64,000 nucleotides of DNA from positions 66,802 to 130,801 of the forward strand of contig KQ965752.1 of NCBI GenBank assembly GCA_001574975.1. Direction: 5' to 3'. This stretch comes from Gonapodya prolifera JEL478 (lineage: Eukaryota; Monoblepharomycota; Monoblepharidomycetes; Monoblepharidales; Gonapodyaceae). Made by a program: the position numbers and the translations under genes. Shown piece after piece: positions 24,621 to 55,746 of the stretch. Below the pieces are notes generated by a model. The model was not told the origin of the DNA. It saw only the letters and a list, made by a program, of their open reading frames with translations, and ran no database searches. Position 1 is the first letter of the stretch. Each line of letters opens with the position of its first letter.

Positions 24621-25068
24621 GTCACGAAACGTGAATGTTGAGATGTGGAGGTTAGTGCCAGATAATTGGTAGCGTTGGACCCAGTCGTGGCGCTTCTGAG
24701 AGCGGCGACTGGATACCTAGCTTCAACAAGACTCATCTTACTGATTGATTAATATTCTCCAGTGAACTGTTCGATACTTCGCGGTCACCTCTTTCTGCAT
24801 GTACGTTCCATAGAGTGCTCAGGAGAGATCCCCCGAAAGACTAGCGTGTATGAAGAACGTGCCCAAGTCATGAATGGAGTGCCACCCTCAAACTTTACGT
24901 CTCTTCCCGGTATGTATGACTCTGCCTTCACGAGGAACCATTTTTGTTCGGCCGCAGCACCTTTTCACCGCCATCCAAAAGACCCTTTCCAACGCGCCAC
25001 GAAAGTTTACTTTTCTGGGACTCTGCAATCCATCGGAATCGCCCCATACTCTCCTCCTCTCCGCCAAA
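24621..25068. promoter_or_regulatory. Divergent promoter region between CCDC40 and a small basic protein
   Basis: About 450 bp separates the two start codons, which face away from each other. It must contain the CCDC40 promoter, probably active at zoospore formation. I see no motif that I can name; the sequence is not repetitive. Confidence 0.4.
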
Positions 25069-27649: not shown

Positions 27650-28369
27650 CCCAGCGTAGGTCCCATCCCGCCCCCCAACCACCCCCCCAGGACCCCCGCG
27701 GCCTCTCCAATCCCCGACGACCCACCCTCCTGTCCCACTTGGCGTCCCTCCTACCCCCCGTCCTCACCCACGCTGACGTACAGGGAGTCCCCGCCCCCTC
27801 AAAGGCGGTCGTGCAGCCTGGGAAAGTGTATATTACTCAGAGAGGGTATAAGGCGGAATGGGAGGGTGACGTCGGAGTGGGGCCCAGGGATCAGGCGGCT
27901 GTGACGAGGTGCGTGGATGAGGTGGGGGTTGTGGAGGGTGAGCTTTTGGGGTGGGGCGGCGGAGGGCCTGGGGTCTGCGGTGACTTCAGGTAGAGGACGT
28001 GTGCCACTTGCCGTCCAACTTTTCCCCTCCCCCACCAACCAGGCATGAACCATTCCACCGGCGCCGCCGGTTACTTGCCGCCATCGTGCTGATCAAAGAC
28101 GAAGCCTCGGCGCGTCGGGAGGCGAACGCAAGCTGCGCGAGTGGCCGTGTACCGACTGCGGGTGCGATGGGACTCAGACGGAGGTTAGGAGGACGAGTAA
28201 GGATGGGAAGAAGGTGCGTTTGCGTTGCGTGGTGCGGGTGGGGGTTTGGTGTGTGCGGGGTTGTGTTGACTGGATTCCCCCGCCAGGCCTAGTCACACAG
28301 CGTATCTGCGACTCCTGCTTCAAAGCACGTCGCAAAGCCCGCGAACAACGCACCCTCAGCAGCATCTAA
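27650..28369 (+). pseudogene. Decayed copy of the SH3 plus GATA-like-finger gene
   Basis: This is a partial paralogue of the 3' half of the gene at 50131-52517. Matching segments in order are HLASLLPPVLTHADVQG (there VFASLLPPVMTYLDVDG), VVQPGKVYITQRGYKAEWEG (there VVQPDRTYVCQRGFRAE), AAIVLIKDEAS (there PAIILVKDAS), PCTDCGCDGTQTEVRRTSKD (there RCSSCGCDGTQTPVRRTSKD) and RICDSCFKARRKA (there HICDECFHKRRA). The introns sit at the same places. The frame changes at least twice between these segments (near 28069 and 28127), each fitting one missing base, and the ectodomain and membrane helix are absent upstream. It is most likely a dead 3'-truncated duplicate about 23 kb from its source. Confidence 0.7.
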
Positions 28370-32204: not shown

Positions 32205-34090
32205 GCTAATGTCCACTTTATGAAGGATGCGGGGTGGGGAGAGAGTAGAGACTTTGAGGTACACCGATCGTTGTGGCAGGGGAGAGTTGCCGTACTACGG
32301 GCGTTTTATTGACGGAAGGGTTTTTTTTTTCTCTTGTACGATTGGAATACACGGGGTTGAAAATAAGTAGAAGAGTGCGACTGGGTTTCGAAGCGAGGTC
32401 ATGCTTTAACCTCGTCGCTGCGAATACCGAAAATTGGTTGCGTCATTGGTTGCGACCCTCTGTACAAACAACCCGTCCTCTCGTCTTCCGGTACTCTGAA
32501 TAAAAGAAATTGAAAGTACCCGTGCAGACTGTGGTGTGTGTTTTTTACAAGGGTACTAGCATTTACGGAGAAATGTCCAACCGATGCTGCACCCGTGAAA
32601 CGACGGTAAGGATTTTCGCGAAAACTTGCCACCGTGTTCTGGGGATCCAAAATCAAGATTCATGTTGCCGATGCAAACTATTCTAAAGCAAAAGTGAAAC
32701 AACCAAGAAAGCTGGCTTCAAGAGACACTGAAAGAGTTCGACGTTGTTGGATGCGAGAGCAGACACACTGCTTTCATCTCAGTTCAAAAAAAACAAATTT
32801 TGAGTGCATGTCAAGAAAGCTACCTTGCAAGAAGCAGCTCTTCAAAATTGATTTAAATGGAGAGAATTGGGTGACGTCAGATCCCATGAAACTGTGTCTG
32901 TTGAAAGAATGGAAACTTGCGCTGTGACTTTTGCTAATAACTAACAATCTGCGCAAGCTTGTTTCATGCGATTGCTAAAATCTCAGGTCAGTTGGAATCA
33001 TTTCACCAGATAAAGCTCTCGACCATGTTGATAAGCTCGACTTTATCTGACTGTGATGCTCCAAGTTGAGTCACCAACTGTAATACAGTACAGGAGACAA
33101 ATTTAGCAACACATGACTACAAGTTTCAAATGAAAACTTCTCTTAAATGTGCTTGCCAGCTTTATGCAAGCGGGATAAATGAGACAAAAGAGAGCTACAG
33201 AGCAATGTCATGTCCTGAGCAACTGCAGTGCCACATGAGGCTGATCTGCTCTGATGGGTATTGCTCTGACGAAAAAGTAGCGGGCAATAACATGTGCACC
33301 CTCATTTGTAAATGGGAGTAAATGCCAAGGAAGGGACATAACTTGGCCAGACCAGATTTACAAAAATTGAAGCCACATGCCTCAAAAATGGTTGATGCAA
33401 GTTATAGTTGATGGTGAGTTCTTCTACAGAGTCCTTCAAATTTGGGACGTATGACTACACATAATGGGTGATGTCAAGTGGCAGTTTGCAAATTAATAAA
33501 AATGTTGCCTCAAGTGTTCTTGTGTTCTTCTAGAATCTGGACCACTCAGCTCATCCACTCAATGAGTGACTGGTGGACTTGAAACGTGTTTTTACACACC
33601 AGTCTTCTCATGACATTGTATGAGGAAGGACAGTCACGAGACAAAAATTGTATACCAGCTTGACGCAATACATGGACAATAAGCGTGTTGCGCATGGATA
33701 AGTTGGTCAGTGGCAACAACGAACAAATGAGCATAACGACGCACGTCAACTGGTGGCAGTTTGCAATTTCGTGAGCGTAGTATCTCGAGTGTAAGTTTTA
33801 TAGCCAAACCCAATGTCATTCGTAAGGTACCCACGCTGGAAGCATTTACCAACTTCACACCACGGCCATGTGTAAAGCGTAGTGCGTATTATTACAAAGT
33901 AAAGTGGCGTTAAGTTTTCTAAACCAAGCCCACCACAAGTAAATAGTCCAACGTAAATACGGAAATGTCCAGCAATGCAGTCCCAGCCCGCGTCATGTCC
34001 AACCGCGATCCAGTCACGCATAAATAATTCCTGTTCCAAGTCCTGGTCAAAGTCCCCACACCCCACTCAAAGGGCAATGGCGACCGGCGT
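32205..34090. other. AT-rich intergenic region, possible relic
   Basis: About 1.9 kb with many stops in all frames and fewer CpG than the flanking genes. I recognise no protein, RNA gene or clear terminal repeat. It could be old degraded repeat sequence like that at 56.6-63.6 kb. Confidence 0.35.
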
Positions 34091-36569
34091 CTACACCGCC
34101 ACAACCACATCCCTCTCCTCACCGCTCGCGAACAGCACCGAGGTCGGGAACATTCCCGACGTGCCTGTCGTGAGGTTACGGCCTGTGGGGATACGCGTGG
34201 TGAGCAAGCTGCACGGAAAGACGTTGGGGGAGGATGAAGGCTCACCTTCCATCCAATTATCATCCACGACCTCGGACACTTCCAGCACGTCACCTGAGGT
34301 GACCTTGAGCTCGTCGTCGGGTCGGTCTTCGGCCGCTACGTTTCCCCACAACAAATTCACAATTCAATGAGTGTTTAACCATCACAATATCCACGACAGA
34401 AGCAACTCACGCGTATACCGCCTCTGCGCAAAATACTTCACGCCCTCCCACCACCCATACTGCACCACGTCCACTCTTGTGCCTCCCGTTGGGGCGCCCT
34501 CGCACACTGGGGGGACGGCTTGCCGGGTGGAGGCCCCATGGGGGGCGCGGTGAGGGTGGGACGAGGACGGGTGGAAGAGCAGGGACGGGGCGAGTGGGCC
34601 GGTGAGGGTTGTGAGGAGGTTCGTGGCTGGGTGGGGGGTGTAGGGGTGAGTGGGAAGGAAGTGGGGGAGAGCAAAGGGGAAAAGAGGGGCGTACCTTCAA
34701 GCCACCCATCATCCAAGATCCTATCCACTCTGACAACGTCTCCCGCCGAGACCAATAGATCTTCAGGTGAGTCGGGGTTCTAACAACACATTATACATCA
34801 ATCATCGCGTCCCGTCAGCAAACAGCAACAGCACCACCACCCCGCCCACACAGATGCACCACACAGCTCACCTGCGCCTTCTGTACCACATAACACACGC
34901 CCTCTTTTGCTTCCCACCGCTCGCTCACTTTCCCACATTCCCACACCAGGGGAACGGCGGTGGCGGTGGCGGTCGATTTCCGCTTACTCCCCGACGCGCG
35001 TCGGCGCTGGGACATCCTTTTGGACTCTCCCTCTCCCACTCCTACACCCGCACCCGCACCCGCACCCGCGGCCGATCCGGCAACGGACATACGCTTGGAA
35101 TCGGCCCCCGCGTACGATTTGCGTCGCGAGGACGAGTCGGTAGAGGGTTTGGAACGGTGCTTGTCCTCGGCGTAAGACATGCGCTTGGACGCCGCCGTCC
35201 CAGGAACAGGGACGGCGAGGGATGCCATTCCCGAGGGGGCCGAAATCCGTTTGCTCGCTCCCCCCGAGGCGCGGCCTTGTTGTTCGGCGTCAAGACCCAG
35301 TCGGGACCGGCGTCTTCCCGACCCGCTCGTCCCCACGGACGCCCTACTCCTCCTATTCTCATTAAACCCACCCTGTCCAATCTCACCACTGGCCAAAAAC
35401 CCGCCTATAATATCCCCCTCGGCGACCTCAACGTCCGGAGACGCGAGCTCGCCCTCTGAGGGCCATGAGGTGGTGGTGGAGGCTGAAAGGGCCCGCATTA
35501 CCCTGGTGGGTGGGGTTGCAGGGATGGGTGCGGGGGTGGGGTACAGGGAGGAGGAGGGGTAAGAGGAGGATGGAGGAGCGCCGAACGAGTGCATGGTATG
35601 TGCAGCCGCGGGGTGTGCGAGTGCGAGGGCGAGGGGGTGTGGGAACCCGCCTGAGGGTGGGCTGTCTTCGGGGCTTGGCATTTTGTGGTACGCCCTACCC
35701 CCGCCTGCAGCAGGGAAGGGCAGGACGGGCTCGGACCCGCGGCCGAGGATGGTCGAGAATAGGGTGTGTCCGCGGGGGAATCCCAGGGGTGTTCCTGGTG
35801 GTGCCCCATCCATGTAGTCGTGCGTGGGCCAGGCGGTGTGGGATCCAATCTCGATCTCGGGCGATGCATGTTTCTGCTCACGACCGCGACGACGACGTGC
35901 ACGAACGTATAAGACGGTCACGGCCCCGATAGCTACGCCGAGAGCTACCATGACGCTGGCCACGGCGACGACGACAGGGCTGCTCGAGATCCCTGCGGCG
36001 CCGCCCCCCGACTGCGAGTTTTGGTTTGAGGAGGGTCCGAGTTGGGCGATGTCCGAGGTGGTGAGGAAAGAGGAAGTGGAGGTGGGGAAAGAGGAGGTGG
36101 TAGAGCGGGAGATGGCGGCTTGGGGTGTGACAGCGTTTCGGGCGGATGTGGGGGCGGCGGCAAGAGCTGCTGCGGAGGTAGGTTGCACAGCGGGTGCAGT
36201 TGTTGCAGCGGGGGGAGGTGCTTGTGCTTGCGACGTCGGTGCAGTAGCTTGGACAGTGGTAGTCGCCACAGCGGGGGCCGGGGGAGGGGGTGGAGGTGCC
36301 GCTGCAGGAGGGGGAGGGGGAGTGGCTGCCGGAGGGGGTGGAGGCGGGACAGCGGGAGTTGGAGACGCAGCCGAAGATGTGGGTTGGCCTTGTCCGTTGC
36401 CGTTGCCCCCGCCCCCGCCGACGTTTGGTTGCTGCGTGGGAGTTAACTGGGGCTGGTCCCGCGACAAGGCAGGGAAGGAGGTGGTCGCAGGCCCGGCACC
36501 ACCACCCCCGCCCCCATCGGCCAACGTCGCAGTTGCCATCGCAGTTTGCGAGTCTCTGGATGTGGCCAT
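34091..36569 (-). CDS. Single-pass membrane protein with two cytosolic SH3 domains (array member A)
   Basis: The first exon (36569-34872) encodes a Pro/Ala/Thr-rich ectodomain with polyproline runs (PPPPPPAATPPPPP), one membrane helix near residues 198-222 (VVVAVASVMVALGVAIGAV), a basic stop-transfer (RARRRRGR), and a 340-residue Ser/Arg-rich cytosolic linker. The first SH3 spans GVCYVVQKAQ, NPDSPEDLLVSAGDVVRVDR and DDGWLEG across exons 1-2. A linker exon (VDVVQYGWWEGVKYFAQRRY) leads to the second SH3: EDRPDDELKVTSGDVLEVSE, DNWMEG, then RNLTTGTSGMFPTSVLF. SH3 domains bind proline motifs. No cleavable signal peptide is seen, so the membrane helix probably acts as a signal anchor. It is parallel to two paralogues at 39.0-41.0 and 41.8-44.0 kb. 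Reading frames are intact. Confidence 0.8.
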
Positions 36570-36928
36570 TGTGTATAACGGGACGGCAACGGGAGCAGTT
36601 ACCGGTGACCAGGTGCAAGCCGTCGGAACAACTCGCGGTCCTTACCGTTGGGTGCGATCTCAGAGTCCTTGCCCAGTGTGCGTGCGGGCCTGCGACGATT
36701 CGTAACGGGTAAGGCGATTCGGGTGACAGCAAAGCGTCAGGTGAGCTGGATTTGAGGGGTGCAGCTGCGCGCCTTCGTGTGCCTAGTGTGCAAAAGGTCT
36801 CCGATGCAAGCTCAAATCGAAGATGCAAAGACTAGTACCACTCTTTTCCTATCTTTCTCGTAGCTATCGGTTAGTGTACCGTCACCTCGCTGATACAATT
36901 CCCCGCAAGAATATGAGGGGAACGACAT

Positions 36929-37165
36929 TCACCCGTCCCTTGGTCGCCTCACCTTCCAAATGCGGAACAGAGTGAATGCCTCCCAAACAATCACACCCGC
37001 CACACCCGCACACGCCACGCTCTCCCACAGTGCGCCCAGGTGACGCAGCATCCGCGGCCGTTCGTCACGAGATTGCACAAGGTGGTCGAGGAATATGATA
37101 TGCAGAGATATCAGACAAACAAACAGATATAATTCAACACTTCTGACTTTGGTCGTTCGCTTCAA
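36929..37165 (-). CDS. Small hydrophobic protein, possible exon
   Basis: A 78-codon frame with two hydrophobic segments (YLFVCLISLHIIFLDHL and SVACAGVAGVIVWEAF) and a basic end (WKVRRPRDG). It could be a small membrane protein or the last exon of something longer; the upstream sequence gives no clear partner. Low support. Confidence 0.25.
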   Translation of the reverse strand: MKRTTKVRSVELYLFVCLISLHIIFLDHLVQSRDERPRMLRHLGALWESVACAGVAGVIVWEAFTLFRIWKVRRPRDG

Positions 37166-37665
37166 GCTTCTTCAAGCATGAGCCAACTCAACAGTCTCGT
37201 CTTATGTAGCAAAATTTACAGCTAATTCAATTGTTAATTGAGGGCAGCTATATCCTGGGTCTGAGTCTTTTTTTTCGGCAACCTCGGTTCATCTCCGCCC
37301 GGGTAATCTTCGCAGCATCCACCGACCTTTCTCCCATCACTGCTGGCATCCCGTTGACAGCTCCCCGACGCTCTACGCAGAGAACTCACGATGCAGCGCC
37401 TACAGAACATTGCCATGACAGAGGTCATCTCGGTGGGTTCTGAGGTGTCGACACCTGTGGCCTGCCTTCACCCTCGCAATTTTCTGCCATGATGCCAATA
37501 CACAGAAGCTCGCCAAGGCAGCCAGGAAGATTGAGTCTTGATTCTCAGTTGGTGGGAGCACTGCAGTATTGGCAGAGGCATGTGAGATCGTGGTAAGTAG
37601 CCATTCAACGTCCCATTAATGGCCATATTGTTTCACATCATTGATTCGTTCTTCCACGCACTAGT

Positions 37666-38309
37666 TCAAATCCGAGACCAACGTCCTCCAGCATCTGTCA
37701 TTTCCTCCTACACCAGACGCTATTGCTGCCCTTGTGGGTGCTTCGGAGACCGCCAGCTTCGGCCTCGGGCCTGAGAGTGTGATGGACGAGACGTTCAGGA
37801 GAGCAATGGCGCTGGATCCCTCCAAGTTCTGGCACCGCTTGCCAATAGAGGAGATTCCCAGGGAGGCACAGAGGACTCTTCTGACCCGTTTTGATGTATG
37901 GGAAAGAGAAAGTCGTGTTTGATTGAGCCTCTGCTTTTCAAGGAGCCTACAGTCGAGGTTGAGGATAGTGGCATGTCAGAGATCTCTTCCAAACTCAACG
38001 TCCAATGGGCCGCGTTCTACTCAGATGTGGAACACGTCATCGCGGAGGTCACGCAGGGATAACGGATCACTTTGACGTACAACCTCTTGGCTGGTAAGAT
38101 CATGCAAGAAACTACATTTTGTTTTGTATCTCTATCGCTCAAACCTTTGATCGCCACGTCACTCGCCAGAACCTGACGCAGAAGAGCCTTCTCTGCCGTT
38201 GGTTGACCCACATTCCATCGCACTCATTACAAAGTTCTCTGAGGCGTTTAAGGGGCCTGCGCTCACTCTGAAAATCCTCTGGGCTGGGTGTGCGTTCATG
38301 ACGTAGGTT
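37666..38309 (+). pseudogene. Remnant of a fungal 2-oxoglutarate/Fe(II) oxygenase
   Basis: Two blocks match a widespread fungal prolyl-hydroxylase-like family: SASFG-type ETASFGLGPESVMDETFRRA with ALDPSKFW (37735-37830), and NVQWAAFYSDVEH followed by RITLTYNLL (38000-38090). Between the blocks, families normally have the nucleotide-independent core with YGPGGFF and HxDTPR, the first iron ligands; that part is missing here. A TAA stands where GHR is expected, immediately before RITLTYN. Both defects would remove activity, so the gene is dead. A possible first exon lies at 37391-37600. It sits between array members A and B and may be an independent insertion or duplicate. Confidence 0.6.
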
Positions 38310-39022
38310 CTTCTGTACATTACGACGGAGGTTCTTGGTACAACGTTTAGATACTCCATTAATCTTAGTACCCCTGCATCGATACCGACCTCTTATCCCC
38401 CACTGTTGCCAGGTTTATTGTAAGGAAGGGACCAGATGCTGTGATGGTGGAGGTCGCCTGCGCACTTGGTCTGGAGGTGCACGTACGTGTGTTGTGTTGG
38501 CTGAAGCTGAAAGGAAAGGGTGGGGGTACAAGCATGAGAAAAACGAAGACCCTTGGCATCACTCACGCGTGGAGCAAAAGTGCACCATCAAAGGAGGTGT
38601 TGTTGCCGAAGACTTGCATGCAAAAGTTCAGAGTGACGGCTCAGTGCAACATTCATTCATTCACTTCATTACATATCACACCATTCACCTATTCATCCGA
38701 TAAAAAAACGCATTCAAAACACAAAAGTCCACTGGCATCCCAACAGCCAACCCCCGCAACCAAGTGCGCTCCGACATTGTATGGCAAAATAAACAGTGTC
38801 TGGTGCCGTCCAGCGGTCCCCTCTCCTAAAATGCATCCTCTAGCGTGTATGCTTGTGTGCGTGTTTTTGTGACCAGGTGTAAGCCTCTTGTAGATTTGTG
38901 TCGCGACTCACGCCCCTGCTTCCCGCTGCTCTCTCCTTGCCGTTGCGTCCGCCGTCCGCGACCCCACGCAAGAGGCGACCCTCTACCCGTTCAACCCCTC
39001 CCCCCTCCCGTTCCACGCTGAA
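38310..39022. other. Intergenic, nothing recognised
   Basis: About 700 bp between the oxygenase remnant and the 3' end of array member B. AT-rich, no protein or RNA gene recognised. Confidence 0.4.
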
Positions 39023-41048
39023 TCACAGCGCCATAACAGCCTCATCCTCCCCATCGGCCGCGAACAGCGCCCACGCGGGGAAGTACCCCGTGCGGTTCGT
39101 CGTGAGGTTGTTTCCTAGCGGGCGGGTGAGGTGTGACGACGTGAGNNNNNNNNNNNNNNNNNNNNNNNNNNNNNNNNNNNNNNNNNNNNNNNNNNNNNNN
39201 NNNNNNNNNNNNNNNNNNNNNNNNNNNNNNNNNNNNNNNNNNNNNNNNNNNNNNNNNNNNNNNNNNNNNNNNNNNNNNNNNNNNNNNNNNNNNNNNNNNN
39301 NNNNNNNNNNNNNNNNNNNNNNNNNNNNNNNNNNNNNNNNNNNNNNNNNNNNNNNNNNNNNNNNNNNNNNNNNNNNNNNNNNNNNNNNNNNNNNNNNNNN
39401 NNNNNNNNNNNNNNNNNNNNNNNNNNNNNNNNNNNNNNNNNNNNNNNNNNNNNNNNNNNNNNNNNNNNNNNNNNNNNNNNNNNNNNNNNNNNNNNNNNNN
39501 NNNNNNNNNNNNNNNNNNNNNNNNNNNNNNNNGGGGGGGGGGTTGAGATGGGAAGAGGATGGGTTAGGGGAAGCGGGGAAGAGACGTACCTTCAATCCAC
39601 CCGTCGATGGGCAGTCCGACCACGAGTACGACGTCGCCTGCGCGGACACTGAGTAGGCCTCTGCCGGAGGAATCCTGGCGGTGCATTTGTGTCACGCTAG
39701 ACTCGTAGCCCATTGCAGGCAATTCACCACCATACCCCAAACAACTCACCCGCGATTCCTGCACGACATACAACGCGCCCTGCCTCACTTCCCACCGCTC
39801 CCTCACACCTCCTTTTTTCCACGACACGGAATCCGTGCCCCCGATCTGGGACCTCGAGCTCCACGAGAGCGCCACGCTTGCGGGGACGCGGAAGTTTGAT
39901 AACGAGCCCTGAGAGTACCTGAACGAGCTGTTTGTGCGGGGCGAGAGCTGGGACGAGCCCTGGATTTTGGAGTTGCGCGAGCGGAAGTTGGAGGGCGTGA
40001 TTGTGGAGGTGCTGTCCTTGCTGAACCCGCTCAGGGTCCGGGTCAAGGCGGTGATGTTGGCGGCGCTTAGGCTCGTGGAGGGTTCGGTGGCGCCGATGTA
40101 GTTTGCGACGGTGGAGGGCGGGTATGAGGCGAGTGAGGGCGGGATGGAGAGCTGGTTTTGGTTCTGGTGCAGGTTCCATCCGAGGGATTGGGACATGAAC
40201 CCGGACGAGATCTTGGAAGGTGGGAGGCTGGACGTGTATGTCGTGGAGGGATGCATGCCCGTGGATGTGGGCGAGGGGAGTCGAACGTCGGACATGATGT
40301 TGTGCTGCTGCGAGCCCGAGTTTGATCCCTGGTACCCTTCGTGGATGTGGTTGCCCGCTGCCGTGACGTACTCCGCGGTGGAGATCGTGGTGGCAGGACT
40401 ACGCCCGCCGAGCCATCCGCTGCCAGTGCCGGGCTCGGAATCTGAGAGCCACGAGGAGGACATGGCCTTGTTGACCCGCGTAGAGGAGCGGAAGTTCTCG
40501 GCGTCTGACTTGCGTTTGCGACGGCGCCGGTACACGAGGAGCATGACACCCACGGCAACGATGGCGAGACCCGCGACAATGCCCCCGCCGATCGCGAGGC
40601 CTGAGGTGGAGTCGGAGCCAGTGTTGCCCCCGCCGGCTGGACTGTTCGGGTCCAGGGCTTGCACGCCCCCCGTGCCCGTCGTGNNNGTGCCGGCTGCGCC
40701 AGTGCTGCGAGATGTGGAAGTGCGAGAGGAGGAAGATGAGGATGTGGTTTGCAGTGCGGCCGCGGAGGTCGGAGGTGTGGAGACTGCGACGCCGTTCACA
40801 TCCGACGGGGCCGCAGCCTCCGAAGGAGCCGCCGAGGTTGCTGAGGGGGAGGGTGAAGGGGAGGGTGAAGGAGATGACGAAGCAGGGGCGGGCGCGGAGG
40901 AGGAACCAAGTGCAGCGGAAGATGTGGCCTGTCGACTGGTGGATGTCGGGTTGGCGACCAGCGCGGAGGATGTTCGCGATGCAGCAGACGAAGTGGCAGC
41001 CCCGCCGCCACCGAGTGCGGAAATGAGAGGGTCGAGAATGCCGGACAT
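39023..41048 (-). CDS. Single-pass membrane protein with SH3 domains (array member B), interrupted by gaps
   Basis: The ATG at 41048 opens a Ser/Ala/Thr-rich ectodomain, a membrane helix near residues 150-173 (LAIGGGIVAGLAIVAVGVML) and a basic stop-transfer (YRRRRKRK). A long Ser-rich cytosolic linker follows. The first SH3 starts at GALYVVQESRVSC and continues to SVRAGDVVLVVGLPIDGWIEG, with an inserted loop of about 25 residues (GYESSVTQMHRQDSSG) or an intron that I could not place. The second SH3 lies mostly in the assembly gap 39146-39532; its end is visible as NNLTTNRTGYFPAWALFAAD and the stop at 39023. A three-base gap lies in the ectodomain at 40684-40686. Domain order is the same as in members A and C. 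Confidence 0.75.
39146..39532. other. Assembly gap
   Basis: 387 unknown bases inside array member B, in the part expected to hold the linker exon and the start of its second SH3 domain. A run of ten G follows directly, so a GC-rich or repetitive stretch is the probable cause. Confidence 0.99.
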
Positions 41049-41769
41049 CGTAGAGAGGGCGCGAGTAGGCTACTAGCGAGAGTGCGGGTGTGGATTGGTG
41101 ATCGCGGTTCGCCACGACAATAAAGGGCGCTCAAGTGGTGTGGCACCGGCGCGGACTTTGTTTTTGCACACCAAAAGAAATATCCCGACCAGTGTATCCA
41201 GCAAAAAACGCATCGTCCAAATCGGGTTGTGTCTTCTACTTTTAGCCACCCGTTCTTCTCTGTATCTCCGTCGGGGTCCGGTGGGGTACACGTCACCAGG
41301 TAAATCAACAAGTCCCTGCCAACGTTTTCCCAAGTACGCCAAACAAACAAGCTTCGCAAGCCACACCAGCCGAGCCTCGGACTTCGGAGTTCGGAAAAGC
41401 TCAGTAATTCATGTTATCCTGCTGTTGCTCTGCTTACACTGGCAGCCAAGCCTAGATATACCGAGTACATCCCCATTCGCTCGCATACAACCCAACCCGT
41501 ATTTTCAGCACTGCTTCCAAAAAGAAAATTGCACGAAAAGCCCATCTACCCGACCCGACCAGAAAAAGAAGAAGGCAAAAATGCAGCTGCATGTACATGC
41601 ATGCAATTGTCCGTCCAGCGGGGCCCACTTTTGCCCAGGCGTGTGTTTTGTAAAAAGTGTTTGTCATCGATATCGTGCACCTCTCCCAGTACAACCGTCC
41701 ACCTCCCTCGACCCGTCCCGTAATCACCCCCAGTATCCTTCACTCCAGAGTGAAGACCCGAGAGATCAT

Positions 41770-43954
41770 TCACTCAAGGGCCATCACCGCCTCCGTATCC
41801 CCATCGAACGAGAACAGCACCGACGTCGGGAACAGGCCCACCATGGACGTAGTGAAGTTTCGCCCTTTAGATTCACATGCAAAACCGTGCCATTAGCGTC
41901 GCACAGCAAACCGCCCACTATGGGAGCAAGAGCAAGCGGAAAAACATACCTTGAAGCCAATTCTCACCCACGACGTCATGGATCTCCATAATATCCCCGG
42001 GGGCTACCGACATCTCATCCGTGATCGAATCGTCCACTACCAACACAACCCTATTAATTCCTCCCGCCTCAATCGCACCACGTGCACCAACAACGCACCT
42101 TCATGACCCCTCTGCGCAAAATACCGACTTCCCGCCCACCACGCATACCGCACCACATCCAATTTTGTCGCCCTCGCTTGCACCTTCGGTTCGGTACCCG
42201 CGATCTCGGACGGGTGCACTTGGTGCGCCCCGTGCGGGGATTCGACGGGTTTGGCACGGCCGGGGCGGAAGAGCGTTGATGGAGCCAGGATCCCGAGTTG
42301 CGACGTGCGGAGGTTGCGGGCTGGGGGTGGTGGTTGGATGTGGGGGAAGAGGGGGAGGGGGGGCGTGTAAGCACGTTTTCGGGCAGCACCGAGAAAGAAA
42401 GGGAAGAGAAGAACGTACCTTCGATCCACCCATCCACGGGCAGCGCGCCGACCCACACAACATCACCCGCGGTCACGGACAGTTCTGCAGGCATGTTTGC
42501 CTTCTGCTCATAAATAAGCGTTAGCTCGAAATCCAGCCGTACCGGTTCTCTGTACCCACCCTCGTCTCCTGAACGACATACGACGCGCCCAACGTAACCT
42601 CCCACCGCTCTCTCACATCACTCTTCTGCCAAAACATCCCGCTCGCCACTAGGGGGCTCTTCACATTGCTCCCCAACGAACCCGGCCGGGACCCCGCCGA
42701 CGCGCTCCGGGCCGGCTGGGCCACGTTGGTGTACGCCTCGAGCTCGCCCGAAGAACTGTCGGGGATGAGTTTGACGGAGGGTAAGCGGAACCCGAGCGAA
42801 GGCGGTTTGGACCCGGACCCGTAGGAACCGGATTTACGGCCCAGGGAGGGGAACGCGCCGGCAAGGAGAGTGGGCGAGATGGACTGGTTCCCGCCCCCAA
42901 CGGCGTCGAGCGGGGTGTACTTGGACACCGAGAAGGATTTCTGCAGGCTCGGAGCGAGTTGTTGTACAGGTGCGCCGTCGTCGTCGGTGGTGGTCATGGC
43001 AGAGTGGTACGTGGCGGACCCGATCTGGGATGAGGGAGGGGAGCGGGATGATGCGAAGCTCGGGCGGGCGGATTTGTGTTTGGTCTCTGGAGTGGACCCG
43101 GCGGCGATCATGTCGACGGGCTTTCCCCATGAGTTGAGCGAATCAGACGTCACGACGTCCCTAGCCATGGACGTTTCCATCTGCGGGGTCGGTGATCCGC
43201 GCGTGCCAGCTGCAGCGCCGGTTTCGGCCCTTCCCCACGCGTCCACCTTCCCCACGCGCGACGCGGCGGCCGCTTTACGTTGCCGGGCGGACATTACCCG
43301 CCTGCGGATGACCAGCATGGCGATAGCGAAGAATGCGAGGCAGATCACCGAGACCGAGGCGGCCACGATGATTGTGAGCGAGTTGAGGCCGGATCCAGCT
43401 GCGGCACCGGCAGGGGAGGGTGCGACGAGACCCGGGGCGGATGCGGTGGGTGCACCGACTCCTGGAGGTGCGACAGTAACAGCTCCTCCGGACGCGGGAG
43501 GTGGTGGAGGAGACACCCCTGGTGCGGCTCCGGCGGCCGCAGGGGAACCTCCCGACCCGGACGTATCCCCCGAGCCGCTCGGTGGGGCTGCGGCGGGAGA
43601 GGCCTGCACGTTGTTGACGCCGTCGGGTTGCATGACGGTCGGCGGGGGTGCAGACGCGGGTGGAGGCGAAGACGTGGGGCTGTTTGGTGCATTGGTGGCT
43701 GTGCTTCCCGATTGTGCAGTTGTTGCTCCGGCGGCCTTTGTGCCCGAGGTTGCAGGGGATGGTGGCGGGGGAGGGTTAGTAGAGGGAGGCGCGGCTGCCG
43801 GTGTGGTTGCAGCGGGGGGAGGAGGCGGGGGTGGGGGTGCCGCGGGAGTGGCTGCAGCCGGAGCCGAAGTGGCCGCGCCCCCGAGAAGCGGGTCGACCAA
43901 GTTCGTGACGACGCCGACTACGCCCCCGACGAGACCTCCCACTAAGCCCGACAT
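41770..43954 (-). CDS. Single-pass membrane protein with two cytosolic SH3 domains (array member C)
   Basis: The ATG at 43954 gives a Gly/Val-rich start (MSGLVGGLVGGVVGVV), then a Pro/Ala-rich ectodomain with polyproline, and a membrane helix near residues 191-216 (LTIIVAASVSVICLAFFAIA) followed by RRRVMSARQRK. The cytosolic linker is Ser-rich. SH3-1 is GASYVVQETR, an intron, then KANMPAELSVTAGDVVWVGA and DGWIEG. The linker exon LDVVRYAWWAGSRYFAQRGH matches the one in member A. SH3-2 is DDSITDEMSVAPGDIMEIHD, ENWLQG, an intron, then RNFTTSMVGLFPTSVLF, and the protein ends DTEAVMALE at 41770. All exons join in phase. B and C share the final xDEAVMAL/DTEAVMAL, so they are probably the youngest pair. 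Confidence 0.82.
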
Positions 43955-45510
43955 TTGAATACGGATGTGTCCGCGTCAGGTAAAGGTAAGCTGAGTGAAA
44001 GCCATGGGAGAGGATTCCGTAATGGGCGATGAGGAGAGGCGGCGGAAGCGCAGCAACATGCCACTCACTGCAGAAAGCGACAACGCTGCGCGGTTCGCCT
44101 CGTGTGTTTCGTTACGTGCAGAGGCGTGAAGCAGGAACTGAGGGCGTTCTGCGTGTGGGGTCCTAACGGGTTCCTTTTTGCAATTACTTCGGTCACCGCA
44201 TCCACGATATAACGTGGCGCCAAGCGTGGAAGCTCCACGGAGTGACCGGAAACGAAGCAGACAGTGCATCAAAACATACTGGTGGAAGCCGGCCCGGTTT
44301 GGTGCGGTTTACGCACTTTCTATGGAACTGGCGACCCTTCCTGTGCGGCAGAGCCGGACCCAAACCTAAAATCCGAATTGGTCACCAGGTCCGGTACGGT
44401 GGTGGAAGGGTAGATCAACGTGAAGATTGAAGATTGTGGTCGAAATGGAACGGCGCGGTGCGAGATCGCAGGCGAATCATGTATGGGGAAGCTTGGCGCC
44501 CTGAGATGCCGGTTGCCGGCTCGAAACTGTTCCCATCAACCGGCATCACGATGCATGACTCTTGTTTGGCTGTTGTAAGCCACCACCCGTGATTGAGCCG
44601 ACAACGAACAAACAAAAATTCCTGTACCTTCGTGATGACTAAGATCGACGCCACGCAAGGGTGGGTCAGACGACAAACAACCGTGCAAAAATGGCACTCC
44701 TCCAGAAAGGTTTGTTTTTTACCTCGTACGCAAACATAAAAGCTCCTCAGTGCGAATGATTGCCCCTGGTTGCCCCCGCCGCCACCGTAGACATCAGGCT
44801 TCGCCACCACTGCTGAAGCAGACAAACGACAAAATCAGCGAGAGAATTTGTACAAACTAGATTGGGTTGTGTTCGGGGCTTAAAAGTGACGGTTTCAGCA
44901 AGCTATGTACAGTGCTATGCACCTTTTTTATCATCCGGGCAATTCGTGCAGCACATTACTGACTCAATGACAAACAAAATAGATGGCATGTCCGTCCCAA
45001 ATAGACCCGCAGATTTCAAAAGCCACGTGAGTCCGGTCTCAGCGTGTTTTGGGCACGCGTATAGGGATCGATCAACAGCGCTCATCATTACGTGGAAGTG
45101 GCGCTGCCATCGTCAATCGTCGGCAGGGGTTTCTAAGCTCTCTGCTTCTTCCTTGCCCCAAAGATTGCACCTATTTGTTGCAGCCCGACTCGAGGACTCT
45201 TTTTGGCCTTTTCCTGCAGGCTGTAACTAAAACTGCGAAGGCATGACGAACCAGGACGGTAGGGATCCCTTGGCCAACCACGGAAGGCACAAATACGTAT
45301 TGTACGAGTAGTAAAATCTGACGTCAGACTGTCGAAGAAATGATTTTTCATCAGGGCAAGCTTTTAGGCGCCGACTGGCCGGCTGAGTGCTGATTCAAAA
45401 ATGAATTTAGCGTTGGGTAGGTCGCGCAAGAGACTCCGCGTCATTCGAACTGACGGGTTTTAATCGTTCAGCTAATGCATTCCACGTGTCTCGGCCACCT
45501 GGAACATGCC

Positions 45511-46802: not shown

Positions 46803-47828
46803 TCATGTATCGCTTTCATCCTCATCCTCACTCGTGTCCGTCTGTGCGTCGTGAACATTCTGCAGGTCCACATCGTACTCAACCTGGGCATGATTCCGCA
46901 ATCTGCACTCAGGATCTCCGACCTCTCTCCAGCAGGAATCGCAGTAGGACCCATTCAATGAGCAGCACACACAGTATCTGACCTGTACAGCGTGTCGAAG
47001 CGGGCCCCGATATGATCGCGGCATGTCTTCAAAGCCCAAGCAGTTGGAGCATGTCTTGAGCATAGCGCAGCGATAACACCAAAATGTGGCGCGTAGCGGT
47101 GGGTATTCAGCAGGGGATAGGTCTGCCTTTATGATGTGTCCGGTACGAAGAGCAGCCATCCCGCGGAGTCCGTCCATTTCGCGATCCGGAATGATCCGCT
47201 CGCACGCAAGGCAAATACTTGGCACGACGGAAAGAAGGTTCGGAAATAGGAAGCGTATTCTAATAGTGAAATCAATCAAGTCCGCCTCCGCTGGCAAAAC
47301 CTCATCCTGAGGCGCGTGGTTCGCAAGGTTGTTGAGCCGCAAGTGTCGGAGCTGGGACTGCGCAGAGCTCAACGGTACAAGTCCCATAAAACCACTTCTT
47401 CTGTCTCTTCTGAGGTCTGTAAGCTCATCCAAGTCCTCCATGGTCACGTTGGGGCAGTTTCTGATGGATAAGGACACGATAGTTCGCTGGAGCAGCAGCT
47501 TTGAAACAGTCCACATCATCACTCCCGTCCTGTCCAGCACCACATGTCTCAGAAGTGAAAGAACGTCCACTGGTAGTTGACTGGCTCCTCCATCTCCGGC
47601 GCGGACCAAGCCCGCAATATCGTCCAGCAATTCGTCAAACTGCTCATCTCCGAACGAAGCTCCAAAGCTGCTGAGGTCCAGATACTGCCAGACAGATGGG
47701 GCGCCTCTGATTCGATGGAGCGAGCGACACGTTGTTGTCAGGTTCAGGCGAGAAGGGACGGGGAGGTAAACCGCGATGCCGGTGAGCGACTCGAGAGGGA
47801 GGGAAGAGAGGCTTGTGGAGGAGGACAT
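46803..47828 (-). CDS. F-box-like protein with C-terminal Cys-rich zinc-binding region
   Basis: The preferred start is the ATG at 47828, giving 341 residues; the frame is open further upstream to 48101, but those residues look like leader. The start reads SSLPLESLTGIAVYLPVPSR then LNLTTTCRSLHRI, an F-box pattern followed by a WQYLDLSSF turn. Leucine-rich segments follow (HVVLDRTGVMMW, LRHLRLNNL). The C-terminus has paired cysteines: CLACERIIP, FWCYRCAMLKTCSNC, then RYCVCCSLNGSYCDSCW and CRLRNH. These could bind two zinc ions in a treble-clef or cross-brace form, but I do not recognise a named family. It ends in an acidic tail. The frame is intact. The broken copy at 48280-49303 is its paralogue, in the same orientation upstream. 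Confidence 0.65.
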   Translation of the reverse strand: MSSSTSLSSLPLESLTGIAVYLPVPSRLNLTTTCRSLHRIRGAPSVWQYLDLSSFGASFGDEQFDELLDDIAGLVRAGDGGASQLPVDVLSLLRHVVLDRTGVMMWTVSKLLLQRTIVSLSIRNCPNVTMEDLDELTDLRRDRRSGFMGLVPLSSAQSQLRHLRLNNLANHAPQDEVLPAEADLIDFTIRIRFLFPNLLSVVPSICLACERIIPDREMDGLRGMAALRTGHIIKADLSPAEYPPLRATFWCYRCAMLKTCSNCLGFEDMPRSYRGPLRHAVQVRYCVCCSLNGSYCDSCWREVGDPECRLRNHAQVEYDVDLQNVHDAQTDTSEDEDESDT

Positions 47829-48279
47829 GGGAGGACTGATGATTTGATGATTCTCGAGAAGGGGAAATGCGACTCCGTTCTTGGTGTGATGGCGGACGGG
47901 TAGAGAGGAAAGACGGCAAGTGGGAGCGGTGACGGTCACTCCGAAAATGAAAGTAAGGAAGCGGATCTCCAGCGGTAGCCTCTCTGAAGAATGCGCGATT
48001 AGTAAGCTTGAGCACAAGGTGGTGGTTTCGTGGCCGGTCGAACTTGGAAAAAGTTCTACCGACATTCTCAAGGTCTCACTTGAATCGAGCTGGGTATTCA
48101 AATAACACTCGCACTGTCGCTGCTAGGAAGTGGGAGCTGCCGTGGTCGCAGTCCAGTTTCGAAGTCATTGAATGACGAGCGCTTCCGTTTCATATTATAA
48201 ATAAATAGTCACTCATAGAATAGCTCCACTTCTCTTAAAACAAATTGCCACCATTGCATGCCACAGCCTCACAACCTCT

Positions 48280-49303
48280 TCAATCACCACCGGCACCCTC
48301 GACGACAGCTACGTCAGATGGCAGCTCCTCGTGGTTCCTTGAGCTGCACACGGGATCTCCAACCGAGCTCCAGCACTTGTCACAATACGACCCGCTCACT
48401 GCGCACCGTACGCAATTCCAACATAGAACATAGAAAAAAAAATTGGCCAGTCGTACACTGGTGAATAGTCCTCGAAATCTCTGCAATGAGAGCACGTCCA
48501 CCAAACTGTGCAGTCCTGACACCAAAACATGCCCTGCACCGGTGGGAAGTCGAGTGTGGGGAAGAAGTCGGCAGGGATGTAATGTGTGCGTAGTAATGCC
48601 AGTTCACGGAGCTTCCTCTTTTCATGTTCGGGGATGACCCTGATGAAGAGGAGGCATATGCTTGGTCGCATGGAAAGAAAGTTGGGACAAAATGCGTACT
48701 TTGTTGGTGAAATCGACCATATTCTGCTCTGCGGGTACGTGGACCTCAAGTCCATGATTGAGGAACGGACGTCGCACAAGGTCGCTGATGCGCAAGTGCT
48801 GGAACTGGGACTGATCAAATGGCATCGTCTCGGGAGCATAACCGGGTGATCTTCTGTCCTTTCTGAGCGCGAAAAACTGAAAAAAGACGTGTTCGTTCGC
48901 GTTAGGGCTGTCTTTGACGGACAAGGAGATGATGTCTGGCCGCGACAAAAGCTTTGCTACAGTCCACATCAACACTCCAGTTCTGTCTAGCACAACGTGT
49001 CAGAAAAGTGAAAGAACGTCCAAAACCGGTTGCATGTCCCGTGGACACGCTCCTTCCTCCCGGTCCCCGGCTAGAACCCATCCCCCAATTGTGAACATCA
49101 ATCCATCAAACTGGTCGTCTCCGAATGAAGAGTTGAAGCAGCTGAGGTCGAGGTGCTCCCACACCGATCTGGCGCCAAGAGTGCGATAGAGCGGCAAGTT
49201 TTAGCCAGGTTGAGGCGAGTAGAAACGGAGAGCGGAGTCGCGATGGCAATAAGGGATTCAAGGGGTAGGGCAGATAGGCTAGTGGATTTGGTCGAAGGGA
49301 CAT
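48280..49303 (-). pseudogene. Broken paralogue of the F-box-like/zinc-binding gene
   Basis: Segments match the gene at 46803-47828 in order: ALPLESLIAIATPLSVSTRL (there SLPLESLTGIAVYLPVPSRL), RSVWEHLDLSCFNSSFGDDQ, LDRTGVLMWTVAKLL, PSICLLFIRVIPEHEKRK, FWCQDCTVWWTCSHC and GSYCDKCWSSVGDP. The frame changes near 49295, 49185, 48690 and again before the last Cys block; each fits loss of one base in a short run. An in-frame TGA near 49003 replaces the Arg codon of LLRHVVLDRTG and is explained by one C-to-T change at a CpG (CGA to TGA). The zinc-ligand cysteines are otherwise kept. It is probably a recently dead tandem duplicate. Confidence 0.7.
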
Positions 49304-50130
49304 GATGGAAGCTCCAGGGCTAAAATTAGGATAATGGGCGGGAATGAGAAACCGGATGCGGATTCGCGTCCACTCTGTCACTCGAAGCAAAAACTGAGAC
49401 ACGTCCACCCGAGATCGGTGACTTTCAAAGAGGAAAGCTAGTTTGACGGCGGGCTTCGTGATTGGGGTCCGACTGTTGCTGTGGTCATGCTGCAGCAATC
49501 GCCCCCAGATCTTCGAACACACAAGAACGCTACTGGACCAGCAGTTTCAGCATAAACGTGTTCGAAATGGACCGACTAGCCTAACTGGAAACTCTTCGGA
49601 GCTTGCTCACGCTTTGAGGACATCGACACCGAAACCAAAATATATTTGAATAGAACACATTAAAATACCCTATCACTTATAAAGAGGACGAAAGCCTGCC
49701 TGACGTGTTTTGTGGTGGACGTGTTGACACGGTTTTTACCTGCTGACCAATGATATTGTAATGCGTTAGTGTTTTCGCCAACAAAGTCCATTTCTACTTG
49801 CTCTTCTGGTTCAAATTTTCGATGATCGAAGCGTTGAAAACGAATCTTGGCGCCGATATCACCACTCAAGTCGGAGATTTTCACCAAAATTGGACAACGG
49901 GAATTTGTTTCTCAGGGAAAACCTTGGCCCCGTGCGGCGAAACAAAACCAGTGGCGCTAGAAGTCTGAACGAGAGCTAATCGAAGGAATACGCACAGGAC
50001 AGAGGAGTGCTGAAGAGTGCATTGCTTGCCGACTTGGGACTCGTGGCCGGTTTCGTTGGCGTTTGTGTTTTGCTTTGCCGGAACGGACCCGCTGTCGACC
50101 GACGGAATCAAAGGAACAGGGAGGACGGAC
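49304..50130. promoter_or_regulatory. Divergent intergenic region
   Basis: About 800 bp between the starts of the broken F-box-like gene (minus strand) and the SH3/GATA-like membrane protein (plus strand). The plus-strand frame is open from 50017, so part of this may be coding. No motif is recognised. Confidence 0.35.
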
Positions 50131-52517
50131 ATGGGACGGATGTCATCACTAGGTGAGAGATGGAAGAGTACGCTGGAACGCTCAGGTGGGAATGAGGCCT
50201 CATGTCCCGGTGTCGCTCTTTTTGGTTCCAAAGTCGGGTTGCTGGTGTCAGGGACAGTCGGGATACTGGCTACAACGGCTGTTGCTGGTAAGTTCTACAT
50301 CTACTCTTGCCCGATTGCTCTGCGACGGAACTCGAACCGTGTGTTGCAGCACCTGCGTATGCGCCCGTCCGGCATCACCTCACCAAACGAGCCTTTTCTT
50401 CCCTCAACTGCACGACCCAAGCAGGGTGCGGACTTGCAAGACCGGAGTATAATGAGGTGAACAGGTTCTGCGACCTGACAGAAAAAACATGCCAGTTGCA
50501 GTGCGCCCCAGGGTGAGTGCTCTGGAGAGTCGGCCCAGAGGGAGTCGAGTTCGTCGAAGGCACAACGCAGACGGGACAGAAACTGTCGAACATAATGCGC
50601 TTCTAGCTCTGTCGGGAAAATATCGCGCACTGGAACTACTGTCTCGCACAATTCCATGCAAAATCATGCAAGGCCGACTAACCCACCCCCATTCCCCAGA
50701 TACTACTCATGTGACTGGAACTGGTGCACAAACGACACCGGAGGCTGCTGGGCGGCCGTTCCCATCGCCGGAGTTCAAGGTCCAGGTCAGTTCACTGCAT
50801 TCCATACATACCAAACCGTAAGCCACGCTTCGACGGGTGCGGCTGCTGCTGCTTCTACTGGTGGTGAGTACTGAAATGAGATTTGAAGAGGGCTCGTTTG
50901 TGGGTGGGACAGTCTTGGAGTGTGGTTTGTTCATGACGTGCCAAATTGCTCGGGTGGTGTGTGGCCGGAACGCAACGCCCGATGTGATAGCACCCCCCTG
51001 TCGGAGCGTGCCGCATGAAAAACGATTGCTACTACAAGAAGGACTATGGACTCAATGTCGAAGTTTTTTGTGAATGCGCCCTGCATGCTTCATTGCCAAC
51101 TTTTGTGACCCCCCACTAAACGAAAGCCTCTCCAGGATTCCGAAGTCTGACGATTTCTTCATTACATTCGTCTCTCTTCCTCCCGCAGTACCCACATTGA
51201 CCTCCTCCTCCACCACCGGAGCCGCCGCTGCTTCCCCTGCCGCCGGAACTCCAACCGTCACGGCCGCCGCTGCCGCCGACACGACCACCTCCCCAACTCC
51301 TTCGCCCGCCGCCACACCTAGCTCACCTTACCTCCTTGGCAACGTCCCGCCCCGCACCCTGATCGGCGTTACCGTTCTGATCACGGGCTCTCTCTTTGGC
51401 GCGTGCGGGATCTACGCCGGGCTCCGGATGGCGCGTAACCGCCGGTACGACAAGAACTGGGTCGTGGAGATGGACGCGCTCGCGCCCCCTGTCGACCGCG
51501 GGGAGTCACCCGGCCTGCCGGAGTATTACGAGGGGCCGCATAACGGAGCCTTGGCGACGGCGCCGAGCCCGACGAGGACGGCGTTCCATGATGATGGGCA
51601 TGGTCATGCCGGTGGATACGGTGGGTGTTTTTGGTGGTGTTTTGAGGGGTGGTCGGACGTGCACGTGCTCACAACTCCCGCCCAATCAACAAACAGAGGC
51701 GTTCTCCCGCCCAGTACCACCGCCCATCTCAACTGCTACTACCGTCGCTTACCCAACCCCTGCTCTCACGTCGGGCGTCGGCCCCGACCAACCAGACGCC
51801 CTCCGCCGCGCGTCGACTCGAGCTCCGAGCCCCGCCTCCGTTTCGCCCCTCCTCACGGAACAGCTCACTCCCGGGGGTGCTCCCGAGGTCTCTGTCGCGC
51901 ACTTGACCGTCTTCGCGTCCCTGCTGCCTCCGGTCATGACGTACCTCGACGTCGACGGCGCGCCCGTCCCTGGAAAGAGTGTGGTTCAGCCGGACAGGAC
52001 GTACGTGTGCCAGCGAGGATTCCGCGCCGAACGTAAGGGCGAACTGGAACTCAAGAAGAGGGAGCAGGTTGCGGTGGAAGGATTCGCGCCGGAGGGGAAT
52101 GGAGCGTGGTTGAGAGGTGAGCCTCAAATTTAGCAAAGGAGGTTCAAGAGCCTCCGACGCTAAGCACATCGATCGACCTGTGTCTAGGACGAAACATTGT
52201 CACCGGTGCCCGCGGTATTTTCCCCGCCATCATCCTCGTCAAGGACGCCAGTACGACGACTCTTGAGGCTGAGGCAAAGCTTCGTGCCTGGCGATGCTCG
52301 AGCTGCGGATGCGATGGGACGCAGACACCCGTGAGGCGGACGAGCAAGGACGGGAAGCAGGTACGATTGATGGTTTCGTACTGCATTCGCTTCGTTGAAA
52401 GCTAACACTGATGGACCCAACCCCGAAAAGCATATCTGCGACGAATGCTTCCACAAACGTCGAGCGGCGAAAGGAGCGGCACAGGGACAGCGGCCTGTCA
52501 GCGGGGCGATGATTTGA
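50131..52517 (+). CDS. Membrane protein with Cys-rich ectodomain, cytosolic SH3 and GATA-like zinc finger
   Basis: The preferred start is the ATG at 50131 (upstream alternative 50017); a hydrophobic signal follows (VGLLVSGTVGILATTAVA). Exon 2 is the Cys-rich module NCTTQAGCGLARPEYNEV then FCDLTEKTCQLQCAPG; exon 3 adds YYSCDWNWCTNDTGGCW. A second Cys segment near 51020 (CRMKNDCYYKKDYG, VFCEC) may be another exon, but its splice phase is unresolved. An Ala/Thr/Pro stalk, a membrane helix (LIGVTVLITGSLFGACGIYA, about 51357-51420) and a cytosolic linker follow. The SH3 domain reads YVCQRGFRAERKGELELKKR, GAWLRG, an intron, RNIVTGARGIFPAIIL. The last two exons hold C-x2-C-x20-C-x2-C: WRCSSCGCDGTQTPVRRTSK, an intron, ICDECFHKRRAAKG, closely like a GATA finger. 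From the membrane helix to the stop at 52517 all exons join in phase. Confidence 0.78.
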
Positions 52518-54446: not shown

Positions 54447-55746
54447 TCATGCCGGCTCCGACTCCCTGTCACGGTACAAGCTATCGCTTCCCCTGGTATC
54501 CGAAGACGGTCTTTGAATCGTGATGACGGGAACTTCCAGAGGCCTGGGCCCCGACTCCAACCCAGACGACGGAGTGCGGGATTCCGGCGTCCGTCGCAGC
54601 AAGCTTAAGGACCCGACGGGCCACGTCTGTGGCATTCTCAGGATCCGCGAGAGTGGCGGAGGAGTTTCCATTGTCCCGTCCTGCGGGGTGGACGTGGGCA
54701 TGGGAACGAGCTTCACTCCAGAGCCGCTTCGGGATCGTCCATGGTGGTACGCCCCTCTTTCGCGTCGGCGGCGCAGCCAGTGAAGACACTCGAACGCGAA
54801 GAGGGCGATGGCGAGGAGGAGGAACAGTGCGAGGAAGAAGATCCCGGAGTAGGCGCCGGGCGTGAGGGCGGTTCCCGTGGAGTTGGAGAGTGCGGGAGCG
54901 GAGGAGGGTGTAGGAACGAGCAGCGAAGACACTCTCGAGAATGGTGATGTTAAATTAGAGGTGGCTGTGTTGGTTGAGGTGCTGATGCTCGTCGTTTCAG
55001 AAGGTAAGAGGCCTGGGGTGGTTGTCTGAGAGATTGATTGAAGGGAAGGGGCGGTGGTTGCCGAAAATGCGAGCGTCACGGTATATGATGTTAGGGTATG
55101 TTGCGACTCGAAAGAGGAAGTAGTAGAAGTGTAATAGCTCGACTGAGTTGCTGTTGCCGGCCATGAAACTGCAGACATGTACGTCAAAGGTCCTGCAATT
55201 GACGATCCAGCAGAAGGCGCTCCTCTCGACACCGAGGTCGGTCTCCCATCATCTGAAGGAATTGTTGTCGGCGTAACAACAATCGCTATTCGACCAGTCC
55301 GTGCCGCAGAGGTGGGTGCACAACTGTTGGTCTCATCATCTTCACATTCCACTCCCGTGGGAGTCGAGCTGCCACAACCAGGGTCGCTGGAACACCAGTG
55401 GAATCCGCACTCCCAGTAACTGAGACAGATTATGCGTATTATTTGGAAGAGCAGCTGTTAATTATGTGATGTCGATTCTTGGCGTTTCAAAATCGACTCA
55501 CCCCTGAGCACACTCTGAATGGCAGAATCCATCATCCCCGCAGTACATAGACTCCTCAAACGCCGCACTATCTGGTGTTCCGCAGTCCCGAGCCGTCGCA
55601 CAGATGTGTCTCCGGCGAAGACGACGAGTCGAATCCGTCCGAAAACGTCGAGACCGTACATCGACCGTGCGTTTCTTCGCTATCTCCCCGGAAGACGACA
55701 CTTTCTGTACGCTGGAATAATGTCCTCGACGATTGAAGCTGTCCAT
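54447..55746 (-). CDS. Membrane protein with Cys-rich ectodomain and short cytosolic tail
   Basis: Exon 1 ends with ARDCGTPDSAAFEESMYCGD and DGFCHSECAQG. A phase-2 intron (donor GTGAGTCG at about 55499) separates it from YWECGFHWCSSDPGCGSS, the same module and intron position as in the genes at 31002 and 50131. A long Ser/Thr-rich stalk follows, then a membrane helix (SGIFFLALFLLLAIALFAFE), a basic stop-transfer (HWLRRRRERG), and a 95-residue tail with PPPLSRI and GPRPLEVP that could offer proline motifs to SH3 domains. It ends at 54447. There is no SH3 or zinc finger here. The 5' end is uncertain: the frame from the ATG at 55746 has no obvious signal peptide and an adjacent frame also looks coding, so a first exon or a frame break may be missed. 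Confidence 0.62.

Follow-up and report, generated by a model that had tools for sequence, protein, structure and literature searches.

Transmembrane (TM) proteins with an SH3 domain, such as Fus1 and Sho1, are signalling hubs of fungi. Fus1 has one TM segment, ends at its SH3 domain and is not known to have a zinc finger, and nor is Sho1; the JIP proteins are soluble scaffolds. Fus1 of Saccharomyces cerevisiae is described in a passage of PMC5823434 as a transmembrane SH3 protein with a non-canonical SH3 surface and with targets that lack PxxP, and according to passages of the same paper and of PMC3817587 it binds formins via its SH3 domain and is found in a complex with Sho1. Four TM segments are given for Sho1 in an excerpt of PMC4411306, and a dimer interface on the SH3 domain of JIP1 in an excerpt of PMC8866124. 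For zinc fingers of GATA factors, a passage of PMC8367991 assigns the spacing C-x2-C-x20-C-x2-C to type IVc, and the same source reports putative GATA factors of plants that have a single TM helix. No description of a protein that joins TM helix, SH3 domain and finger was found among the literature matches listed, as judged from the listings, the starts of abstracts and the passages cited here.

Such a protein appears to be encoded on the + strand at positions 50131–52517 of the window, i.e. the whole stretch of 64,000 nucleotides that was analysed. A sequence-only reading had placed there a protein with ectodomain, stalk, membrane helix, SH3 domain and finger joined in one chain, and both the coordinates and the joined order are borne out by the computed gene model. 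The start codon is located at 50131 and the stop codon ends at 52517, and seven exons (50131–50287, 50350–50512, 50700–50863, 51189–51620, 51697–52116, 52188–52360 and 52431–52517), separated by six GT-AG introns of 62, 187, 325, 76, 71 and 70 bases, form one frame of 531 residues that is open to the stop. In exons 1–6 the frame of the model is the only one free of stops, and in exon 7, which carries the terminal stop, one other frame is open too. Rfam and tRNA scans of the whole window gave no matches.

The splicing was modelled in silico and exon 4 is of low complexity and GC-rich (68%), so that the SH3-finger portion might be encoded by a gene separate from that of the membrane portion. We regard this as highly improbable. 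Among the consensus joins tried at the boundary between exons 4 and 5 three are open, all from the single donor at 51621 and each with its own acceptor, the first of which gives the join of the model, and exon 4 therefore joins in frame through one consensus donor only. Exon 5 has no in-frame Met before Met386, and the region conserved in another copy of the SH3-finger part, located at 28 kb in the window, begins already at residue 375, so coding must enter exon 5 from upstream. The order of a TM helix followed by SH3 is also found in two neighbouring genes, at 34 and 42 kb.

The domain order of the predicted 50-kb protein is an N-terminal hydrophobic segment, a Cys-rich ectodomain, a Ser/Thr stalk, a membrane helix, a linker, the SH3 domain and the finger. 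Its hydropathy shows two strong segments, residues 35–53 (1.88) and 218–236 (1.89), and a weaker one at residues 370–388 (1.36). The first of these (50233–50351, + strand, spanning intron 1) could be either a signal peptide or a signal anchor. The membrane helix, residues 218–240 (51356–51424, + strand), is the single strong helix ahead of the SH3 domain, with residues 35–53 as a possible second helix if they are left uncleaved, and it is directly followed, on the SH3 side, by basic residues and then by a linker rich in Pro and Ser. From this arrangement we infer a location at the cell surface. Sho1, an osmosensor, is likewise a membrane protein with a cytoplasmic SH3 domain, but identity with Sho1 was rejected, since four TM segments would be needed and the 50-kb protein has two strong hydrophobic segments and one weak.

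The ectodomain, residues 72–123 (50406–50748, + strand, spanning intron 2), contains two N-glycosylation sequons, and when searched alone it matched no Pfam family; of the following stalk stretch, residues 135–210, 37% is Ser or Thr. It resembles the ectodomain of another gene, here called the 55-kb gene (54450–55600, − strand, 5' end approximate). The resemblance reached E 0.33 only in tblastn; with the exons joined the alignment score was 99, a value reached by 0 of 5000 Cys-fixed shuffles (highest score 81, n=5000) and 0 of 5000 full shuffles, and the two ectodomains have a phase-2 intron in common (55501–55420 in the 55-kb gene). The 55-kb gene also encodes a stalk and one strong helix, and has a weak match to Endomucin (E 0.0055, below cut-off) that fits a mucin-like stalk, and its tail gave neither an SH3 nor a GATA match in Pfam. 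Ectodomain, SH3 domain and finger thus seem to have been mixed as modules, because the 55-kb gene combines the ectodomain with another tail. It sits downstream of the SH3-finger gene, on the opposite strand.

The SH3 domain, residues 408–463 (52002–52240, + strand), is interrupted by a phase-1 intron (52117–52187). A segment of 71 residues matched Pfam SH3_1 with E 1.4e-4 and 21.8 bits, and in the scan of the whole protein the match had E 0.0075 and 16.3 bits, both under the cut-off of 22.9. The nearest PDB sequences are SH3RF2 (2cuc, E 1.8e-4), and JIP2 (E 0.0031) and JIP1 (E 0.025), which are thus among the best matches. With the similarity to 2cuc and to the last SH3 domain of the 34-kb gene, and an intron in common with the latter, the domain is homologous to accepted SH3 domains, and the SH3 assignment of the earlier reading holds although the score stays under the Pfam cut-off. 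In the alignment the ligand Trp and Pro are present, and Arg and Ile are found at two usual Tyr sites, which we take to be the first Tyr of ALYDY and the Tyr of SNY, so the canonical set of PxxP-binding aromatics is incomplete. As judged from these aligned residues, it is an atypical SH3 domain in which two of the usual ligand-binding tyrosines are absent. The 50-kb protein is accordingly like Fus1 in being a predicted membrane protein whose SH3 domain departs from the canonical ligand surface, and unlike Fus1 in its Cys-rich ectodomain and in the finger behind the SH3 domain; the likeness drawn here is one of layout. A pre-SH3 block, residues 375–393 (51903–51959, + strand), overlaps the weak hydrophobic stretch at 370–388 and is kept in the 28-kb copy. 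A match to GSK-3_bind (E 0.017, residues 340–429) was below cut-off, extended over the linker into the beginning of the SH3 domain, and was set aside as compositional.

A row of TM-SH3 genes, all on the − strand, occupies positions 33900–44000 of the window. Two of them, the 34-kb gene (34094–36641) and the 42-kb gene (41773–43975), both with approximate outer ends, have a phase-1 intron in their last SH3 domain, end after this domain and carry no finger; the third, a probable TM-SH3 gene at 40 kb (39026–41069), has a run of N inside and only a weak match to SH3_9 (15.2 bits), in its first piece. All three encode a start rich in Ser, Thr and Pro, one strong helix (hydropathy 2.69 at 34–37 kb, 2.47 at 39–41 kb and 2.73 at 42–44 kb), a long tail and SH3-like ends, and weaker second hydrophobic stretches are found at 39–41 kb (1.44) and 42–44 kb (1.76). 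With exact splicing, the last SH3 domain reaches 43.5 bits with SH3_1 in the 34-kb gene and 34.2 bits in the 42-kb gene, above the cut-off in both cases. In both of these genes a second, weaker SH3-like region lies ahead of the last SH3 domain, and that of the 42-kb gene scored 14.1 bits with SH3_1. The SH3 domain of the 50-kb protein is 34% identical to the last SH3 domain of the 34-kb gene over 56 columns (pairwise E 2e-8) and 28% identical to that of the 42-kb gene over 57 columns (pairwise E 5e-7), and by our own reading of the sequence the phase-1 intron inside the domain is common to all three genes, which are thus related.

The second SH3-finger copy was detected when the 50-kb protein was compared by tblastn with its own window, and is located at 27730–28365 on the + strand, with its pieces in three frames. 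The identity is 52% over a block of 58 residues before and in the SH3 domain, and the fingers, with their two exons joined, are 69% identical over 42 residues. Both introns are kept at the same sites and in the same phases, as read from the sequence by ourselves: the phase-1 intron follows the Gly of WLRG and the phase-0 intron follows DGK[QK]. For the 58 codons of the SH3 block pS is 0.66 and pN 0.32, which gives a dN/dS of about 0.26, and for 39 codons of the finger the values are 0.65, 0.19 and about 0.15, where the counts cover the alignable blocks only and the ratios are biased downward. The constraint is seen in the first finger exon (27 codons, pN 0.14 vs pS 0.72) and is weaker in the last one (12 codons, dN/dS 0.52). 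The synonymous differences are near saturation. SH3 domain and finger thus form a conserved unit, and the common introns, the near-saturated synonymous sites and the low ratios suggest that the pairing is old and has been kept by selection. For the first SH3 part of the 28-kb copy, Pfam gave no match with an E of 1 or less.

Upstream of the 28-kb copy no ectodomain or TM segment resembling that of the 50-kb protein was found by tblastn, and in the 50-kb protein Met242 and Met256, just past the membrane helix, are the only in-frame Met residues between Met4 and Met386. A soluble SH3-finger protein might accordingly also be made, from one of these two positions or from a shorter transcript, and its finger would then work away from the membrane. 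This is very unlikely in our view, as the three frames of the 28-kb copy mean that it may not be expressed, and unrelated hydrophobic stretches do occur upstream of it, which possibly represent another kind of membrane part. The 28-kb copy is probably decaying or truncated, or there are assembly errors at this place.

The finger, C-x2-C-x20-C-x2-C at residues 482–509 (52295–52448, + strand), has a phase-0 intron inside (52361–52430). It had been read as a GATA-like finger, and the part of that claim which is supported is the spacing, x20 in both copies, which falls within the C-x2-C-x17-20-C-x2-C of GATA fingers and is of type IVc among the types IVa–c. Comparison with the GATA profile, which had been put forward as a check, gave E 0.026 for a segment of 61 residues, under the cut-off, and in the scan of the whole protein GATA was not listed and DUF7685 had E 0.13. 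The scores with GATA (PF00320) are 14.6 bits for the 50-kb finger and 16.2 bits for the 28-kb finger, with a cut-off of 26.8. GATA and DUF7685 are the only Pfam families for the finger segments of the two copies, DUF7685 with E 0.011 (also under cut-off) in the 50-kb finger vs 0.14 in the 28-kb finger, and GATA with 0.026 vs 0.0078. DUF7685 was rejected as the family of the finger, being as good as GATA on the main copy, worse on the second and without a functional lead; a search of control genomes gave DUF7685 matches in 1 of 14 (Bacillus subtilis), below cut-off.

In the 50-kb and 28-kb copies TPVRR and TEVRR, respectively, correspond to the TPLWRR core of GATA factors, and CDECF and CDSCF to CNACG. 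The core Trp is thus absent in both copies, the Pro of TP is lost in the 28-kb copy, and the residues past the last Cys are unlike GATA. The score with a home-made profile of seven GATA fingers, which cannot separate GATA from other treble clefs, was reached by 2 of 5000 Cys-fixed shuffles of the 50-kb finger and 8 of 5000 of the 28-kb finger, so that both resemble GATA more than random sequences with the same Cys positions do. When the single finger was compared with the PDB, plant GATA18 ranked highest (E 0.026). A profile of both copies put a partial match to a C2H2-type protein at the top (E 0.0036), followed by bL36 and then by plant GATA18 (E 0.26), and this weakens a firm GATA label. 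The only NCBIfam match on the Cys region is a weak one to Cas12f2 (E 0.042 and 0.014, cut-off 450 bits) and points to a generic resemblance of Cys pairs. Because both copies score below the Pfam cut-off and lack the core Trp, the finger, presumed to bind zinc, is better called a GATA-like treble-clef candidate, and it may be another treble clef. Pattern searches for relatives gave 15 matches to the SH3-finger unit in viral contigs and 106 to the finger in prokaryote genome contigs, none of which was confirmed by tblastn.

The finger could mean that the protein is a transcription factor tethered to the membrane, where a ligand or a stress would cause the chain to be cut in the membrane helix or close to it, and the tail with SH3 domain and finger would move to the nucleus and bind DNA through the finger. 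Among Pfam families GATA ranks first or second for each of the two finger segments, plant GATA18 is the top PDB match of the single finger, the spacing is that of type IVc, and basic residues are present on the finger flanks. The putative membrane-bound GATA factors of plants have, like the 50-kb protein, one predicted TM helix and a finger, and in the passage of PMC8367991 they are described without an SH3 domain or an ectodomain. Rare combinations of TM segments and DNA-binding domains are proposed as a class in a passage of PMC13294678, the main text of which mentions neither GATA nor SH3. The idea is rather unlikely, though, as the GATA scores are under cut-off in both copies, the core Trp is gone, the Pro of TP is missing in the 28-kb copy, nothing of GATA type follows the last Cys, and the neighbouring 34- and 42-kb TM-SH3 genes have no finger; the 50-kb finger also differs from GATA factors in being predicted to be membrane-anchored together with an SH3 domain. 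Its specific form, a chytrid-type surface receptor that combines an SH3 scaffold of its own with a GATA-type finger in a single chain and is released as a transcription factor, is distinctly unlikely.

The second copy, the finger-less TM-SH3 neighbours and the ectodomain-sharing neighbour argue more for a modular family than for a tethered transcription factor, and judged by its sequence the 50-kb protein belongs, as a member that carries a finger, to a local and modular TM-SH3 family of Fus1-like layout. We give an even chance to the reading that it is a surface scaffold of this layout, with a finger that binds protein. The Cys-rich and probably glycosylated ectodomain, on its mucin-like stalk, would sense or bind something outside, and the membrane helix would anchor the chain in the plasma membrane. 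At the inner face the atypical SH3 domain, carried on a flexible linker, might dock a partner or dimerise, and the C-terminal GATA-like zinc treble clef would provide a second, protein-binding contact. The ligand type and the signalling role of such a scaffold are what we infer from this layout. Against it speak the SH3 score under the Pfam cut-off, the SH3 part of the 28-kb copy without a Pfam family and the dN/dS of 0.52 in the last finger exon, and the basic residues of the finger (VRR, KDGK and HKRR) would be compatible with binding to nucleic acid or phospholipid as well.

The window also contains a gene for an axonemal ruler protein like CCDC40/FAP172 (22361–24716, − strand, E 9.3e-16 with the one ORF piece searched), and the flagellate, chytrid-like setting proposed earlier is supported by this gene. 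A piece of a snoRNP gene of Nop58/Nop56 type is located at 16360–16974 on the − strand (Pfam Nop, E 5.6e-52). Two similar ORF regions at 46806–49550 (− strand), with a motif LPLESL...RLNL, are F-box-like by eye; the second is apparently degraded, and the pair looks like a local duplication.

Fungi commonly have domain architectures that are specific to one species, with 443 in the sole chytrid of a survey of 111 species according to a passage of PMC4102429, which tempers the surprise at the pairing of SH3 domain and finger. The finger yields a sharp motif for the search of other genomes, CxxCGCDGTQTxVRRTSKDGK. The locus points to a TM-SH3 family in a flagellated fungus, one member of which carries a selected GATA-like finger behind its SH3 domain. 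This position of the finger suggests a new use of such fingers in protein docking, or else a factor that acts directly from membrane to nucleus, and a released receptor, if true, would mean that in early fungi a single protein could lead from the cell surface to the genes.
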